Source: Haloplanus sp. XH21
GTDB lineage: Archaea > Halobacteriota > Halobacteria > Halobacteriales > Haloferacaceae
Length of the DNA stretch: 64,000 bases
Assembly: GCF_023276355.1 (NCBI RefSeq)
Contig: NZ_JALLPL010000001.1
Coordinates: forward strand, 1,674,001 to 1,738,000
Direction of reading: 5' to 3'
Shown here: piece after piece, positions 36,647 through 64,000 of the stretch
Layout: every line of letters begins with the position of its first letter
Position numbering within the stretch: the first letter of the stretch is position 1
Program-made: the position numbers and the translations under genes
The notes under the pieces: generated by a model
What the model saw: the letters and a program-made list of their open reading frames with translations, nothing else
Databases searched by the model: none
What the model was told of the DNA's origin: nothing

Positions 36647-37978
36647 ATGAAAACGGACAATCAATCGGCGAACGGAGGGGGAATCGAACGGGGGGCCGAC
36701 GCGGGGGACGCACGGACGAACGGCACGCTCGCAACGTCGGCGGGGGGCGTCTTGCTCCCGGCCGACAGCGAGCTGACGCCGACGCTATCGGTCGTCCTCC
36801 CGACGCTCAACGAAGAGGACGGCATCGGCGAATGTATCGATCGCATCATCGCCGCCCTGGAGACGCTGGAGATCCACGGCGAGATCGTCGTCAGCGACAG
36901 CTCGACGGATCGCACGCCGGAGATCGCCCGAGAGAAGGGCGCGATCGTCGTCGAACCGGACAAGCCGGGTTACGGCTACGCGTACCAGTACGCGTTCGAC
37001 CGGTGTCGCGGGGAGTACATCGCGATGGGCGACGCCGACACGACCTACGACTTCGAGGAACTCCCCAAACTGTATCGTCACGTCGCCGAGGACGACGCCG
37101 ACACGACCTACGACTTCGAGGAACTCCCCAAACTGTATCGTCACGTCGCCGAGGACGACGCCGACATGGCGATGGGGAGTCGCCTCAACGGCGAGATCAA
37201 GGATGGCGCGATGCCCGCGCTCCACCAGTACGTCGGCAACCCGCTCCTGACCGCGTTTCTCAACACGTTCTACGACACCGATGTCAGTGACGCCCACAGC
37301 GGGATACGCGTCTTCAGCCGCGACGCCCTCGACGCGATGGACCTCTCGACGACCGGGATGGAGTTCGCCTCCGAGATGATCATGGAGTCGGGGGCAAGCG
37401 ACCTGACCATCGCCGAGGAGCCCATCACGTACCACGAACGCGAGGGCGAGGCGACGCTCGACTCGTTTCAGGACGGCTGGCGACACGTGCGCTTCATGCT
37501 TGAGAACGCGCCGGGCTACCTGTTCACCGGCCCCGGCATCGCGCTGCTGGTGTTCGGCCTCGCCGTCATCGCGGGCTGTCTCGCCAACGTCTCGATCGGG
37601 CCGGCCGGATTCGGCCTCCACTCGCTCATCGCCGGGTCGCTGTTCGTCGTGATCGGCTTCCAGGCGATCACGCTGGGCGTGTTCGCCAAGCTCAGTGGCG
37701 ATCCCGTCCGGAATCCATCGGATCCACTGACGACGCTGCTCGTCGAACACCTGTCACTCGAACACAGCCTGGCCGCCGGCATCGGCGTCTTCGGCCTCGG
37801 ATCCGCCTACGCCACCTTCATGGCCGGACGATGGGTCGGCAGCGGCTTCCGGACGCTCCCGCTCGTCGAGTTCGACATCGTCGCGATGACCGCCATCGTC
37901 GTCGGCATCCTCGCCATCTTCAACTCCTTTTTCCTCAGCATCATCGTCGAGGAGTCGGCATCCGCCCGCGACGCGTAG
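36647..37978 (+). CDS. GT2 family glycosyltransferase (dolichol-P-hexose type) with internal duplication
   Basis: 443 residues from the ATG at 36647. GT2 fold with LSVVLPTLNEEDGI (about 43), GDADTTYDF (metal-binding DxD region) and SDAHSGIRVF. Three to four C-terminal helices follow, as in polyprenol-phosphate glycosyltransferases (AglJ-like). A 63-nt exact tandem repeat (residues about 129-149 and 150-170) duplicates the DxD segment. Part of the surface-glycan cluster with galU and the epimerase. The ATG at 36647 rather than 36506 is chosen because the TATA box at about 36580 lies between them. Confidence 0.88.
   Translation: MKTDNQSANGGGIERGADAGDARTNGTLATSAGGVLLPADSELTPTLSVVLPTLNEEDGIGECIDRIIAALETLEIHGEIVVSDSSTDRTPEIAREKGAIVVEPDKPGYGYAYQYAFDRCRGEYIAMGDADTTYDFEELPKLYRHVAEDDADTTYDFEELPKLYRHVAEDDADMAMGSRLNGEIKDGAMPALHQYVGNPLLTAFLNTFYDTDVSDAHSGIRVFSRDALDAMDLSTTGMEFASEMIMESGASDLTIAEEPITYHEREGEATLDSFQDGWRHVRFMLENAPGYLFTGPGIALLVFGLAVIAGCLANVSIGPAGFGLHSLIAGSLFVVIGFQAITLGVFAKLSGDPVRNPSDPLTTLLVEHLSLEHSLAAGIGVFGLGSAYATFMAGRWVGSGFRTLPLVEFDIVAMTAIVVGILAIFNSFFLSIIVEESASARDA
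37031..37156 (+). repeat. 63-bp exact in-frame tandem duplication
   Basis: Bases 37031-37093 and 37094-37156 are identical, followed by a third partial start (gacgccgaca). In protein this doubles DADTTYDFEELPKLYRHV plus AED. Confidence 0.95.
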
Positions 37979-39606: not shown

Positions 39607-40800
39607 ATGAATCTCGAACGTATCCCGCACGCCTTGATCGGCGTCGGCGGTCTCTTGGGCGGGGTCATGCTCCTCGAAATCGGGGCGATGGCCGTCTCAT
39701 CGATGCAGTTCGAGACCGTCGCCATCGTCAACTGGGCGGCCAGCCTGCCGTTCATCGTGGCGCTCGTCGGCAGCGGCTACTGGTTGCGACGCCAGAACAT
39801 CGCAACCGAGCGATACCGACGGATTGCGGGCTGGACCGCCGCCGCGTTCGGCTTCTTTTTCGTGTTCTTCACCGTGATCGCGGTGCTGACGGAAGACCGC
39901 ACTCTCTTTCAGATCGGCATCATCCGATGGGGAGCGTCGGCCGGCGCGGGCGTCGGCGCCCTCGTCGGCGTCCTCGAAGCGAGAGCGATCGAACGGGAAG
40001 TGGCCGCCGACCGGACGCGCGTTCGCAACGAGGAACTGCAACGGCAGAACGAGCGCCTCGAGGAGTTCGCCAGCATCGTCTCCCACGACCTGCGAAACCC
40101 GCTGAGCGTCGCGTCGGGGTATCTCGAACTCCTCCGAGAGGAGTACGACGACGAGGCCCTCGATCGGATCGACGCGGCACACGAGCGGATGGACCAGATC
40201 ATCGAGGAGTTGCTGGTACTCGCCGAGAGCGGGCAACCGGTCGACGATCCACAGTCGGTGTCGCTCGCCGCCATCGTCGAACGCTGCTGGTCGAACGTCG
40301 ACACCAAGGGCGCGACGCTGGAGATCGAGGGGGACGCGACGATCCGGGCGTACCCCGACCGGATCCAGCATCTCTTCGAGAACCTCTTTCGGAACAGTGT
40401 GGAACATGCTTCCACGAGCAGTCGGATGGAATCCGACGACAGTGTCGAGCATGGCTCGACTAATAACCGGACGCAGTCCGGTGACAGTGTGGAACACAGT
40501 TCCACAAGCAGTCGGGCAGGGCCCGACGACAGCATCGAACACGGTGGCGAGGCCGTCACGATCCGCGTGGGGACGCTTCCGGACGGGTTCTACGTCGTGG
40601 ACGACGGTCCCGGGATCCCTGCGGGCGACCGCGAGACCGTCCTCGAGAGCGGCTACTCGACGAAACAGGGCGGCACCGGACTGGGCCTCGCGATCGCCCA
40701 GCGCATCGCCGATGCACACGGCTGGGCGCTCGACATTACGGAGGGATCGGACGGGGGCATGCGACTCGAGATCACCGGCGTCGAGTTCGCCGATCGGTGA
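39607..40800 (+). CDS. Histidine kinase with expanded palindromic insert
   Basis: 397 residues. Four membrane helices (about 8-115), then a coiled-coil linker, DHp with SHDLRNPLS (about 159-167) and an HATPase domain with N-box FENLFRNSVEH, G1 DDGPG and G2 GGTGLGL. No sensor domain beyond the membrane part, so it may sense membrane state. The N-box is followed by three 15-residue repeats (SVEHxSTxSR...). AT-rich palindrome ataattaaaattat lies about 45-60 nt upstream of the start. No response regulator is adjacent. Confidence 0.9.
   Translation: MNLERIPHALIGVGGLLGGVMLLEIGAMAVSSMQFETVAIVNWAASLPFIVALVGSGYWLRRQNIATERYRRIAGWTAAAFGFFFVFFTVIAVLTEDRTLFQIGIIRWGASAGAGVGALVGVLEARAIEREVAADRTRVRNEELQRQNERLEEFASIVSHDLRNPLSVASGYLELLREEYDDEALDRIDAAHERMDQIIEELLVLAESGQPVDDPQSVSLAAIVERCWSNVDTKGATLEIEGDATIRAYPDRIQHLFENLFRNSVEHASTSSRMESDDSVEHGSTNNRTQSGDSVEHSSTSSRAGPDDSIEHGGEAVTIRVGTLPDGFYVVDDGPGIPAGDRETVLESGYSTKQGGTGLGLAIAQRIADAHGWALDITEGSDGGMRLEITGVEFADR
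40399..40527 (+). repeat. Three tandem coding palindromic units (45-nt period)
   Basis: Each unit has two hairpins of 6-bp stem and 5-nt loop. Starts at 40399, 40444, 40489 and again at 40421, 40466, 40511. The first stems are GTGGAA, GTCGAG, GTGGAA; the second are GTCGGA, ACCGGA, GTCGGG. Stem changes are compensated. Confidence 0.9.
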
Positions 40801-40847: not shown

Positions 40848-41873
40848 TCACTTCGGTGGGATATCGAACCCCGTGAACTCGAATCGGGCCCCGCCACCGG
40901 CGGTGTCGGTGACGAGAAATTCGGCTCCGTGTGCGTGGGCGACCGCCTGTACGATCGCGAGCCCCAGGCCGTTGGTCCCTTTCGTGGAGAAATCCGCGTC
41001 GACGATCTTCGCGCGGATCGCTTCGGGAAGGCCTTCGCCGTCGTCTTCGACGTAGAACCCCGTGGTGAGGGTGCCGACGGTGACAGTACACGCCTCGCCG
41101 GCGTGCTGGATCGCATTTCGAAAGAGGTTCTCGAACAGTTGGAGGAGGAGTCGACGGTCACCGAGAACCGTCTGTGCGTCGCGCACCGTCAGTGTCGCAT
41201 CCGCGGTGTCGACGGTTCGCCACGCCTCGCGGGCGAGCGCGCCGGTATCGACCGGCTCGACCGTCGACAGCGCCCCGGAGCGCGTGAACGCGAGCGTCGC
41301 CTCCGTGATTTCGGTGATCCGCTGGGCCGCCCGCTGGATCGTGTCGACCTTGTCGTTCTCACCCAGTTCGGTCGCGAGCAACGCCGCGTAGCCACCGATC
41401 ACGTTCAGCGGGTTCCGAATGTCGTGCGTGAGGACCCCGAGCAGGGTTTCGAGCTGCTCCCGCTGTGTCGTCGCCTGCAGCTCGGCCTCTTTGCGGTCCG
41501 TGATGTTGAGATGGGCGACCAGCACGTACTGCGCCCCGTTCTGCCGAAAGCCAGCGGCCTGCATCATGAACCAGCGCTGTTCCGTCGGCGAGTGACACGG
41601 GTATTCGGCCTGTAACTGCGTCTCGGTTCCGTCGAGGATCGCTCGGAGGCCGTCGACGATCTCGCTCGCCCGCGGATCGTCGTACGCCTGCCCGGCGATC
41701 TCCAGGTAGTTACTGCCGAGCCAGTAGTCGGGGCTGGTCCCGTGGTTCGCGTCGGCGAACTGTCGCCACGCCTCGTTGACGAGGATGATCTCACCCGCGG
41801 CGTCCAGAATCGCCACTTCAGCAGGCAGTGCGTCCATCCCCGCGGCGATCACGCCGGCTGATAGCTGGGTCAT
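40848..41873 (-). CDS. PAS-histidine kinase
   Basis: 341 residues. PAS domain (about 10-125; AGEIILVNEAW, AHLNITDRKEAE), DHp H-box THDIRNPLNV, then HATPase with N-box ENLFRNAIQH, DDGEG and GTNGLGLAIV. No membrane helix, so a cytoplasmic sensor. The N-box region lacks the palindromic insert seen in its two relatives. Convergent with the other kinase. Confidence 0.9.
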   Translation of the reverse strand: MTQLSAGVIAAGMDALPAEVAILDAAGEIILVNEAWRQFADANHGTSPDYWLGSNYLEIAGQAYDDPRASEIVDGLRAILDGTETQLQAEYPCHSPTEQRWFMMQAAGFRQNGAQYVLVAHLNITDRKEAELQATTQREQLETLLGVLTHDIRNPLNVIGGYAALLATELGENDKVDTIQRAAQRITEITEATLAFTRSGALSTVEPVDTGALAREAWRTVDTADATLTVRDAQTVLGDRRLLLQLFENLFRNAIQHAGEACTVTVGTLTTGFYVEDDGEGLPEAIRAKIVDADFSTKGTNGLGLAIVQAVAHAHGAEFLVTDTAGGGARFEFTGFDIPPK

Positions 41874-51480: not shown

Positions 51481-51564
51481 GCGCGGGTAGCCAAGCCAGG
51501 AAAAGGCGCAGCGCTTAGGACGCTGTCCCGTAGGGGTCCGCCGGTTCAAATCCGGTCCCGCGCA
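51481..51564 (+). tRNA. tRNA-Leu (anticodon UAG)
   Basis: 84-nt cloverleaf. Acceptor GCGCGGG pairs with CCCGCGC, discriminator A. Anticodon stem CAGCG/CGCTG with loop CTTAGGA, anticodon UAG at 51516-51518, decodes CUN leucine. A long variable arm marks a class II tRNA. CCA is not encoded. A TATA-like tttataa (51431-51437) lies upstream, and a hairpin CGTCGG...CCGACG (51460-51479) abuts the 5' end. Confidence 0.97.
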
Positions 51565-51750
51565 TGAGCGAACGGAGTGAGCGAAGAGCAGGCACGGATT
51601 TGTGGCCCAGAGAACGAGCGGAGCGAGTTCTCGTGGTTCAAATCCGGTCCCGCGCAGTGAGGAGCGAAGCGACGAACGAGCAGGACGGGGTGAGCTCTAG
51701 AAGACGAACGGAGTGAGTCTTCTTTCGGTTCAAATCCGGTCCCGCAGCCG
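51565..51750. repeat. Extra tRNA-Leu 3' ends and hairpins (att-like)
   Basis: The tRNA 3' end (ggttcaaatccggtcccgc) recurs at about 51635-51656 and 51729-51748. Between them lie hairpins GAGAAC...GTTCTC and GAAGAC...GTCTTC around the core GARCGGAGYGA. The stems differ but pair. This looks like a stepwise attachment-site scar. No integrase is present. Confidence 0.7.
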
Positions 51751-52385: not shown

Positions 52386-54593
52386 CTACCCCTCCACGAA
52401 CTCCACACCCCTGATCTCGAATCGCGCGCCGCCCTCATCACTCTCGACAATCCGCACGGACCATCCGTGGGCCTCGACGATCTGCTCGACGATGCTCAAC
52501 CCGAAGCCGGTTCCCCGCTCCGATGTCGAGTAGCCGGCCTCGAAGACATCGGTGCGTTCGCCCTCGGGAATCCCTGGCCCGTCGTCTTCGACGTAGAAGC
52601 CGTCGTCCAGGTCGCCCACGGTGACCGTGACATCCGCGCCGCCGTGCTCGACACTGTCGTCGGATTCCATCCGACTGCTCGTGGAAGCATGTTCCACACT
52701 GTTCCGAAACAGGTTCTCGAACAGTTGCTTCAACCGGCCGATGTCGGCCTGAATCGTGCGATCGGTGTCGACGACGAGCGAGGCGTTCGCCGTCTCGACG
52801 GTGTCCCAGCACTGGTCGAGTACTGTCTCGAGGGCGACCGGTTCGGGGTCGGTCACTGTAGTCCCCTCCCGAGCGAGTGCGAGGAGGTCCTCGATGAGGG
52901 CGTCCATCCGCTCGTGTGCGTGGGCGACGTCCTCCAGGTGGTCACAGTCACAGTTGCGGCGGGCGAGTTCCAGTCGGCCTTCAGCGACGTTTAACGGGTT
53001 CCGGAGATCGTGTGAGATGACGCTGGCGAACCGATCGAGGCGCTGATTCTGGTGTTCCAGTTCCTCCGCGTAGGCCTTCCGCTCGGAGATGTCACGACCG
53101 ATACCGACGAGCCCGTCCATATCGATGTCCTCGCCATGCAGCCGACCGGCCGTGAACTCGTAGGGGATGTGGGTCCCGTCGGCCGTGACGAGGTCGGCCT
53201 CGACGACCGCCTGCCCGGTCGTCAGGGCCTCGTCGATCGCGGCCTGTACCCGCGGTCGATCCCCCTCGGCGAAGAACTCGATCACGTGCATCGCGTCGAT
53301 TTCGTCGCCCGGGCGACCGATGACCGCGGAAAACCGGTCGTTCCACCGGCGGAGAGTCCCATCCTGGCCGACGAGATAGAAGATATCGGGGAGCATCTGA
53401 GTCAGTTGCTCGACGAAATCACGCTCCTTTCGGAGTCGTCGCTTCTGTTCGACCTGTTCGGAGATATCCTGGCCGAAGCCACACAGTCGTTCGACGCGCC
53501 CCTCCTCGTCGGTGATGACGGTCGCATCGAACCGATACGGGACGAGGCTCCCGTCCTTCGTGCGGAACTCGGCCTCCGCAGTGACGGTGCCGGTCTCTAG
53601 GAGTTCCTGGATCTTCTCGGCGATGTACTCCTGTTCGTCGTCGGGGAAGAACTCGGTCGCGTGCATCCCGATCGCTTCCTGGGGACGATACCCCGTCACG
53701 GAGCCATCCGTGTCGCTCCAGTCGGTGACGTAGCCCTCGGTGTCGAGCACCCAGTAACACTCCAGCACGCTGTCGAGGACGATTTCGTTGAACGCTTGCT
53801 GCTTGCGGAGTCGTTGCTCGCTCCGCTTCCGGTCCGTGATATCGCGAAGCACGCCGACGAATCGCCGCTCGCCGTTCCATTCGAACTCGCTGACGGAGAC
53901 CGAGGTCGTGAGTTCGTGTCCCTCCTCGTGGCGCACCGGCAGTTCCGCCGCGTTCCAGTCGAGCGTTCGTTCCCCCGTCGCGAGATACCGGTCGACGGCG
54001 GCGAGATGGTCGTCGCGATAGCGGGCGGGCATCAGCGTGGTCAGGGGTTCACCGACGAGCGACTCGGGATCGTAGCCGAACGACTCCTCGACGGCGGGGT
54101 TCGCAAACCGGATCGTGCTCTCGGCGTCGATGGCGATGATCGCGTCCGTCGAGTTGGTCGTGATCGCTTCGAGGCGCGCACGGGTGCGTTCGGATGCCTG
54201 AATGTCCCGCCACTCCTCGACGGCGGTTTCCACCCGGCGGGCGAGCGTCGAGAGCCCCTCGTCGACGCTCTCGTGCCGGAGATAATCGGTGACGCCCGCC
54301 GAGATGGCTTTGCTCGCGACCGCTTCGCCCCCCGCGTCGGTGAAGAGGATAAAGGGGAGGTCCGGATGGGTCTCGCGGACGGCGGAGAGAAACGCGAGGC
54401 CGTCCCGGTGGGGCAACGCGTACGCCGAGACGATGCAGTCGACACCGGTCTCGGCGAGTCGCTCGAGCCCGTCGGCGGCGGTGGTCGCCGTCGAGACCTC
54501 GAAGCGGTCGTCAGCGCGTTCGAGGGCGACCGCAACCGATTCGGGATCGGGAGCGACGTGGAGGATGTGGTGGCTACCGGGTGGCGGGCTCAT
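52386..54593 (-). CDS. Multi-PAS histidine kinase with pseudo-receiver and palindromic insert
   Basis: 735 residues. An N-terminal receiver-like domain (8-125) lacks the phosphoacceptor: DCIVSAYALP replaces the usual VSDYDMP, the acidic pocket is ILHVAPDP, and the lysine is lost (DYLRHES). Three PAS domains (about 145-265, 275-400, 405-515), then DHp SHDLRNPLNV and HATPase with NLFRNSVEH and one unit of the palindromic insert (52659-52697). A cytoplasmic sensor with no adjacent regulator. Confidence 0.92.
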   Translation of the reverse strand: MSPPPGSHHILHVAPDPESVAVALERADDRFEVSTATTAADGLERLAETGVDCIVSAYALPHRDGLAFLSAVRETHPDLPFILFTDAGGEAVASKAISAGVTDYLRHESVDEGLSTLARRVETAVEEWRDIQASERTRARLEAITTNSTDAIIAIDAESTIRFANPAVEESFGYDPESLVGEPLTTLMPARYRDDHLAAVDRYLATGERTLDWNAAELPVRHEEGHELTTSVSVSEFEWNGERRFVGVLRDITDRKRSEQRLRKQQAFNEIVLDSVLECYWVLDTEGYVTDWSDTDGSVTGYRPQEAIGMHATEFFPDDEQEYIAEKIQELLETGTVTAEAEFRTKDGSLVPYRFDATVITDEEGRVERLCGFGQDISEQVEQKRRLRKERDFVEQLTQMLPDIFYLVGQDGTLRRWNDRFSAVIGRPGDEIDAMHVIEFFAEGDRPRVQAAIDEALTTGQAVVEADLVTADGTHIPYEFTAGRLHGEDIDMDGLVGIGRDISERKAYAEELEHQNQRLDRFASVISHDLRNPLNVAEGRLELARRNCDCDHLEDVAHAHERMDALIEDLLALAREGTTVTDPEPVALETVLDQCWDTVETANASLVVDTDRTIQADIGRLKQLFENLFRNSVEHASTSSRMESDDSVEHGGADVTVTVGDLDDGFYVEDDGPGIPEGERTDVFEAGYSTSERGTGFGLSIVEQIVEAHGWSVRIVESDEGGARFEIRGVEFVEG
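52659..52697 (-). repeat. Coding palindromic element, single unit (kinase 2)
   Basis: Hairpins GTCGGAttccaTCCGAC (52659-52675) and GTGGAAgcatgTTCCAC (52681-52697). The gene-sense sequence is identical to unit 1 at 40399-40437 and shares its flanks over about 65 nt. Confidence 0.9.
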
Positions 54594-63387: not shown

Positions 63388-64000
63388 ATGCCACAGGTCA
63401 GCGTCGAGACCATCGAGTCGGTCGGAGAGCGAACCGTCGCGATCGAACTCCGGACGCCCGAAGGGTTCGACGCCGACCCCGGACAGTTCGTCCTCGTCCG
63501 TGCGACCGTCGACGGCAGCGAGGAGCAACGCTCCTCTGGAAACCGGTCGGAGACCGGTGGCGTCGAAGAGACGGGGTACTACACCATCTCCTCGCCCGAC
63601 GTCGAGGAGACGTTGGAGATCACGGTCGAAGCCGCAGCGGAGGGCACGCTCGCGCCCTGGTTGGCCGAACGTTCACCCGGCGACACCGTCGAAATCGAGG
63701 GGCCCTTCGGCGACGTTCGGTACACGGGCGACGGACCGGTCGTCGTCCTCGCCGAGGGGCCGGGCATCGGTCCGGCCGTCGGCATCGCGGAACGCGCCCA
63801 GCGCGCGGGTCACGACGCGACGGTCGTGTTCTGGGGCGAGTCCCCGCCGCACCAGGAGCGCCTCGACGCCCTCGAAGACGAGGGGGGGACGGTCCTCCTC
63901 GTCGGGTCGCTCGACGAGGCGGCCGATATGCTCGCCGGCGTCGAAGACGAGACGGTGTACGTCTTCGGCTTCGAGTCGTTCGTCAGGGACGCCAAGACGG
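63388..64000 (+). CDS. PyrK-like FAD/Fe-S oxidoreductase (C-terminus cut), with palindromic insert
   Basis: 204 codons to the window edge; ferredoxin-reductase fold: FAD-binding beta barrel (DPGQFVLVRATVDG, ETGYYTISSPD), then the NAD domain (VVVLAEGPGIGPAVGIAERA). Resembles the electron-transfer subunit of dihydroorotate dehydrogenase. Residues 45-57 (EEQRSSGNRSETG) are an insert made by the palindromic element, just before the conserved YYTISSP. Missing the cysteines that would bind Fe-S, but the C-terminus is cut. Confidence 0.82.
   Translation, partial: MPQVSVETIESVGERTVAIELRTPEGFDADPGQFVLVRATVDGSEEQRSSGNRSETGGVEETGYYTISSPDVEETLEITVEAAAEGTLAPWLAERSPGDTVEIEGPFGDVRYTGDGPVVVLAEGPGIGPAVGIAERAQRAGHDATVVFWGESPPHQERLDALEDEGGTVLLVGSLDEAADMLAGVEDETVYVFGFESFVRDAKT
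63520..63558 (+). repeat. Coding palindromic element, single unit (PyrK-like)
   Basis: Hairpins GAGGAGcaacgCTCCTC (63520-63536) and ACCGGTcggagACCGGT (63542-63558), spaced 22 nt start to start as in the kinases, and starting at codon position 1. Confidence 0.88.

Follow-up and report, generated by a model that had tools for sequence, protein, structure and literature searches.

In-frame copies of a small palindromic double-hairpin element, probably mobile, in haloarchaeal genes

The histidine kinase locus of Haloplanus sp. XH21

The window analyzed here is a 64,000-nt stretch of the Haloplanus sp. XH21 genome. It carries a histidine kinase gene whose coding frame holds three tandem 45-nt units, as the original prediction had stated, together with further copies of the same unit and a neighboring kinase that lacks it. 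The features are as follows.

39607-40800, + strand: histidine kinase open reading frame of 397 aa, with HisKA and HATPase_c domains and a three-unit array in its N-box loop
40396-40530, + strand: three-unit array, in frame in the histidine kinase gene
40396-40440, + strand: unit 1, consisting of AGT, hairpin A (40399-40415), linker (40416-40420), hairpin B (40421-40437) and GAC
40441-40485, + strand: unit 2, consisting of AGT, hairpin A (40444-40460), linker (40461-40465), hairpin B (40466-40482) and GAC
40486-40530, + strand: unit 3, consisting of AGT, hairpin A (40489-40505), linker (40506-40510), hairpin B (40511-40527) and GAC
41115-41117, - strand: N-box Asn codon of the neighboring kinase (40848-41873), a site without insert
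52386-54593, - strand: second histidine kinase, 735 aa, with one unit at the corresponding N-box position
52656-52700, - strand: the single unit of the second kinase, identical to unit 1 of the array
63517-63561, + strand: non-kinase copy within the reading frame of a FAD-binding oxidoreductase gene that continues past the end of the window, the copy consisting of AGC, hairpin A (63520-63536), linker (63537-63541), hairpin B (63542-63558) and GGC

Each kinase unit contains two 7-bp stems with 3-nt loops, which replace the 6-bp stems and 5-nt loops first proposed. In unit numbering, hairpin A pairs positions 1-7 with 11-17 and hairpin B pairs positions 23-29 with 33-39. Hairpin A of unit 1 is the exception, its seventh pair being C:C, so that 6 bp are closed. 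The stems differ between units with both arms changing jointly, as had been described. Units 1, 2 and 3 score 57.9, 54.2 and 59 bits with a covariance model of the element, and the array folds far more stably than its shuffles (z = -7.35 for DNA, z = -6.13 for RNA), 0 of 200 shuffles being as good. In a predicted structural model, the insert lies immediately after the N-box helix and ahead of the next beta strand; the earlier placement between the N-box and the ATP lid is correct, if loose. The kinase core of this model is mostly confident, and the insert (approximately residues 128-173) forms a low-confidence loop.

The second unit-bearing kinase is located 12 kb from the array kinase. The two share an exact tract of 65 nt, and the 90 nt upstream are only 63% identical. 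The N-box site of the neighboring kinase (40848-41873) is insert-free and reads NAIQHAGEACTV. Two other repeats are present in the window: a 92-nt tandem repeat at 51542-51745 (2.2 copies, 78% match) that includes a sequence resembling a tRNA 3' end (GGTTCAAATCC...), and a perfect direct repeat of 63 nt, or 21 codons, at 37030-37166 (2.2 copies).

Covariation in kinase units

The array pattern is matched in 119 of 391 Halobacteria genomes and its reversed control in none; among the 119 are genomes with 57-nt matches (GTCGAACATCTCGTC...) that represent another gene and were excluded. The scan of the 391 genomes provides 127 distinct 45-nt units from kinases, in which all varying free pairs are Watson-Crick far more often than expected from column composition. 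Observed and expected counts are 115 versus 60.5 for V3:S3, 116 versus 63.2 for E3:G3, 121 versus 73.8 for 23:39, 119 versus 68.7 for 24:38 and 114 versus 49.3 for 28:34. At the pairs quoted, this test is free of the paired-stem selection bias that affects the covariance model.

Pairs V3:S3 and E3:G3 join third codon positions and are synonymous, in units that all encode VEHGST. Both remain significant when one state per genus is counted (27 versus 14.1 expected and 29 versus 17.4 expected, respectively). All four Watson-Crick types occur at pair 28:34, and the encoded amino acids are exchanged accordingly (T-S, P-A, A-P and S-T). Protein selection alone cannot explain the kinase units, given the third-position covariation and these pairing-driven amino acid swaps, and to this extent the proposed selection on structure is upheld, the structure being conserved beyond what the protein needs.

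Two kinases from related genomes (L019 and L058) carry other types of N-box insert beside the standard unit, including a 48-nt insert (VEHGSTSPRANAPED) and SPDSQARQD / GSENASEPSVANAPED repeats. These are possibly sister element families.

Family, distribution and empty sites of the element

The double hairpin extends well beyond kinases. A search pattern that bars the usual kinase serine codon recovers copies in a FAD-dependent (TrxR-like) gene and in a membrane-protein linker, and a further copy where no host frame is open. When a non-His pattern is applied to 84,980 species genomes, it returns 29 elements from Halobacteria, 27 of which have both stems paired, and 19 matches from outside Halobacteria, none of which does. 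The consensus unit of approximately 45 nt opens with AGC and hairpin A (7-3-7); a linker of 5 nt, close to RRGCA, leads to hairpin B (7-3-7), which has a CGG...CCG core, and GAC closes the unit. The consensus flanks are GACAGC and GAC. Translated in its usual frame, the unit yields a soluble loop, DSxxxxxSSSRTQSGD.

Among 81 non-kinase-type elements, hairpin A has 34 different left arms and pairing is nonetheless retained. In a diverse alignment of 40 family sequences, 98.2% of cells are paired, a percentage that is biased upward because the covariance model was trained on elements picked partly for paired stems. Double changes are found at 11 of the 14 pairs, the pairing is reached by 0 of 500 shuffles, and it is lost when the pairing is shifted by one column. 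A structure-only scan of the loci gives 282 matches, versus 4 in order-2 simulated sequence.

At E <= 1e-6, the census places the element in 91 of 116 Halobacteria genomes, with up to 37 copies per genome. The covariance model finds 12 copies in the Haloplanus sp. XH21 genome, 5 of them within the window. Six units are distributed across four kinases, and the non-kinase copies lie in TrxR-like, DJ-1/PfpI-like, FAD oxidoreductase (63517-63561) and GMC-oxidoreductase-like genes; the remainder are a decayed copy in a CBS-domain-like gene and one without a clear gene (host names other than those tested with Pfam were read from translations). Across Halobacteria, in-frame copies are present in LeuRS, LeuC, PurD, CobN, nitrite/sulfite reductase, FAD oxidoreductases, a P-type ATPase and others. 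Pfam domains span the insert in PurD (GARS_N), LeuC (Aconitase), CobN, nitrite/sulfite reductase, the HAD domain of the P-type ATPase and the FAD-binding protein of the window, and the LeuRS insert is spanned by NCBIfam LeuRS models. For all other genes the host frame is taken from translation only, and its choice by acidity is rough, being wrong for some genes that Pfam settles, such as nitrite reductase. Among the loci examined, the element is found mostly inside genes and most in-gene copies are read in the sense direction. The matches listed favor strong copies, so decayed copies are under-represented.

Some copies depart from this pattern. Exceptions to the sense frame in DJ-1-like and peptidase-like genes (L109, L118 and the second copy of L075) are probable antisense insertions. 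Near-identical intergenic compound arrays recur at several chromosomal places in genomes of one genus (g14; L161-L169). In several genera a copy without an obvious host frame has a common context, GTCAACAGC... (L071, L096, L104, L106, L192 and L213), and may travel with some other repeated or mobile sequence.

Relatives have empty sites at five unrelated loci, and filled genes typically gain exactly 45 nt, or 15 codons. In LeuRS, the insert is present in one of seven species of the same genus. The FAD oxidoreductase of relatives reads GAC GGC GTC, which in XH21 and one other species becomes GAC GGC [AGC...hairpin B] GGC GTC; a third species has a variant insert, and most orthologues in the same genus have none. 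In the TrxR-like gene, GAC GGC becomes GAC [AGC...hairpin B] GAC GGC, and the same empty and filled pattern is seen in beta-CASP-like and HerA-like genes, with a gain of 42 nt at one beta-CASP-like site. GAC or GGC flanks both ends at several sites. Conservation is much stronger on the right side than on the left: in 82 non-kinase contexts, GAC or GAT stands on the right in 78 and GAC on the left in 51. The sequences would fit either a 42-nt element with a 3-bp target duplication or a 45-nt unit with its own GAC. Some sites are filled in several genera, which could reflect vertical descent or repeated insertion. Variant inserts with other stem lengths and paired arms are present at a HerA-like site (L378, approximately 8 bp and 6 bp, and L381).

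The unit is accordingly not confined to one gene, a point on which the original prediction could have failed, since the second kinase and many unrelated genes carry it. Copies in many unrelated genes and between genes, empty sites in relatives and decayed copies leave unsupported a reading that the wording of that prediction allows, in which structure is selected in place as a kinase feature. On this distribution, a kinase-centered reading of the double hairpin does not hold.

Origin of the element and relation to known systems

The array was probably built from copies of a small, mobile palindrome that leaves the reading frame intact, its mobility being deduced from comparison among genomes. 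The element would insert beside a GAC-type codon and add 15 codons, and insertions in genes would survive because the usual frame gives a soluble loop. Copying may proceed via single-stranded DNA hairpins, either by a transposase or by template switching, and the hairpins would be kept because only copies with paired arms propagate; the element would thus act as small selfish DNA. The kinase N-box is an insertion hot spot at which the element re-encodes VEHG residues. Landing after the N-box Asn would displace VEHG by 15 codons per unit, and the kinase versions encode VEHG in hairpin A, which presumably restores the N-box motif. The 45-nt repeats may afterwards expand to arrays and pass between paralogous kinases.

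Selection of the peptide VEHGST...SR...DD as a linker or spare N-box motif, with incidental hairpins, would account for its conservation in kinase units and for the soluble loop of the usual frame; as a pure protein repeat it is contradicted by the synonymous covariation, and with third bases covarying with one another, a third base from which Asp or Gly at another site can be predicted, the amino acid swaps at 28:34 and the low-confidence loop of the predicted model also against it, it is scarcely credible. An mRNA structure of the kinase transcript, selected for pausing, stability or protein binding, could draw on the strong synonymous covariation within coding sequence, the folding of the array as RNA and the sense reading of most in-gene copies. 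The stem mismatches speak against it. RNA helices favor G.U over A.C, and the 249 distinct elements contain 34 G.T and 38 A.C mismatches (28 versus 31 in kinase units and 6 versus 7 elsewhere), as opposed to 16 G.U versus 4 A.C in a small and noisy control of tRNAs from the loci of the element census. On these near-equal counts, the constraint on pairing seems to act in DNA and not in sense mRNA, a choice that the original prediction had left open. Hairpin B of 54 of 81 non-kinase elements has a GNA triloop with a C-G closing pair. Such loops have unusual stability in DNA, although codon choice could also favor them. The element is moreover present in unrelated genes and intergenic DNA and missing from most orthologues, and nothing near the array exceeds the Rfam gathering score. 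The mismatch symmetry and the non-kinase copies lead us to reject mRNA structure as the main cause, and we regard it as very unlikely.

Two further explanations concern how the hairpins are maintained or moved, and both appear unlikely. In palindrome correction, template switching during replication would use one arm to rewrite its partner. Pairing could then persist with no selection on mobility or structure, and spread would occur by rare transfer and slippage. It is consistent with mismatches that lack strand bias, with reverse-complement loops on one stem (e.g. GGA and TCC with GTCGGAT/ATCCGAC) and with the absent transposase association. It leaves unexplained the conserved linker and CGG/CCG core as well as dispersal to unrelated genes that share only a GAC-type triplet, and it should affect any hairpin, yet this layout alone is amplified; such correction may nevertheless act jointly with mobility. 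Similarly improbable is a REP-type element moved by an IS200/IS605 (Y1) transposase in the manner of RAYT and GTAG REPs. Small multi-copy hairpins would suit it, and 81 of the 116 Halobacteria genomes have a Y1 transposase. However, the number of Y1 transposases in a genome is nearly unrelated to its number of elements (Spearman 0.16, p = 0.10), and PF01797 is unmatched in four of the richest genomes (21-33 copies); the correlation ignores phylogeny and past losses, so it lowers this explanation rather than excluding it. Two carriers were also considered and rejected. None of 47 pattern matches in IMG/VR has both stems paired, and of six weak plasmid matches to the array, five fall under annotated histidine kinases or response regulators.

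The proposed frame-preserving mobile palindrome resembles several known systems, and would work in the manner of Rickettsia palindromic elements or yeast mitochondrial GC clusters. Like MITEs, it is small, dispersed and apparently non-autonomous, with a possible 3-bp target duplication; unlike them, it has no terminal inverted repeats joining its ends, and its arms pair inside each self-contained hairpin. Paquin and colleagues, as cited in PMC4478555, reportedly described, in 2000, double-hairpin elements with two hairpins and evidence of mobility in Allomyces mitochondria, which differ from the haloarchaeal element in genome and sequence. Mobility of the latter, as compared with such double-hairpin elements and GC clusters, is drawn from comparative evidence only. 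The yeast mitochondrial GC42 is a 42-bp G+C-rich mobile hairpin with AG or ACT flanking repeats and presence/absence variation (PMC4478555). GC42 and the haloarchaeal unit are both short hairpin DNA with short flanking repeats that vary in presence, whereas the yeast clusters are mitochondrial, mostly intergenic and of other sequence (PMC4478555).

CGTC- and GTAG-tagged REPs, described in bacteria, are single, mostly intergenic hairpins with a tetranucleotide tag, and the CGTC families have no dedicated transposase (PMC3733652). They likewise are short many-copy hairpins, some within genes (PMC3733652). The haloarchaeal element differs in being a fixed pair of hairpins joined by a 5-nt linker and, at the loci examined, in lying mostly within genes; its consensus lacks the tetranucleotide tag on a single hairpin, and no association with a RAYT-like Y1 transposase is seen among the Halobacteria genomes tested. 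Rickettsia palindromic elements (RPE; Ogata et al., 2000) measure approximately 150 bp and form ten families in Rickettsia (PMC10969869). They too are short palindromic DNA dispersed in frame among unrelated protein genes and have no known mobilizing enzyme (PMC10969869), as none is identified for the haloarchaeal element. The latter shares the in-frame dispersal among unrelated protein-coding genes and is a small hairpin unit with presence/absence differences between close relatives. Set against RPE, it is 45 nt long, with two separate 7-bp hairpins and arrays, and was found only in Halobacteria. The element is placed outside the REP, MITE, RPE and GC-cluster families, from which it differs in layout, length and, where compared, sequence; it lacks the tag and Y1 association of REPs and the terminal inverted repeats of MITEs.

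To our knowledge, in-frame invasion of genes by mobile palindromes is rare and unexplained, and is recorded mainly in Rickettsia and organelles. No earlier archaeal report was found in the open-access literature searched, which leaves out most subscription journals. We tentatively suggest, as a broader reading that is possible rather than probable, that Halobacteria carry selfish DNA that has no dedicated transposase, is copied via single-stranded hairpins, is nearly harmless and mimics displaced N-box residues. Its 15-codon length and benign frame would make insertion nearly harmless, so that the element could colonize the coding part of the genome. Approximately four fifths of the haloarchaea sampled carry it, and its many copies, clear-cut empty sites and genetically tractable hosts would make the mechanism directly testable. 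The element also accounts for odd low-complexity inserts (VEHGST..., GSRTQSGD...) that interrupt proteins of haloarchaea, a tRNA synthetase and biosynthetic enzymes among them, and that can mislead annotation and alignment.
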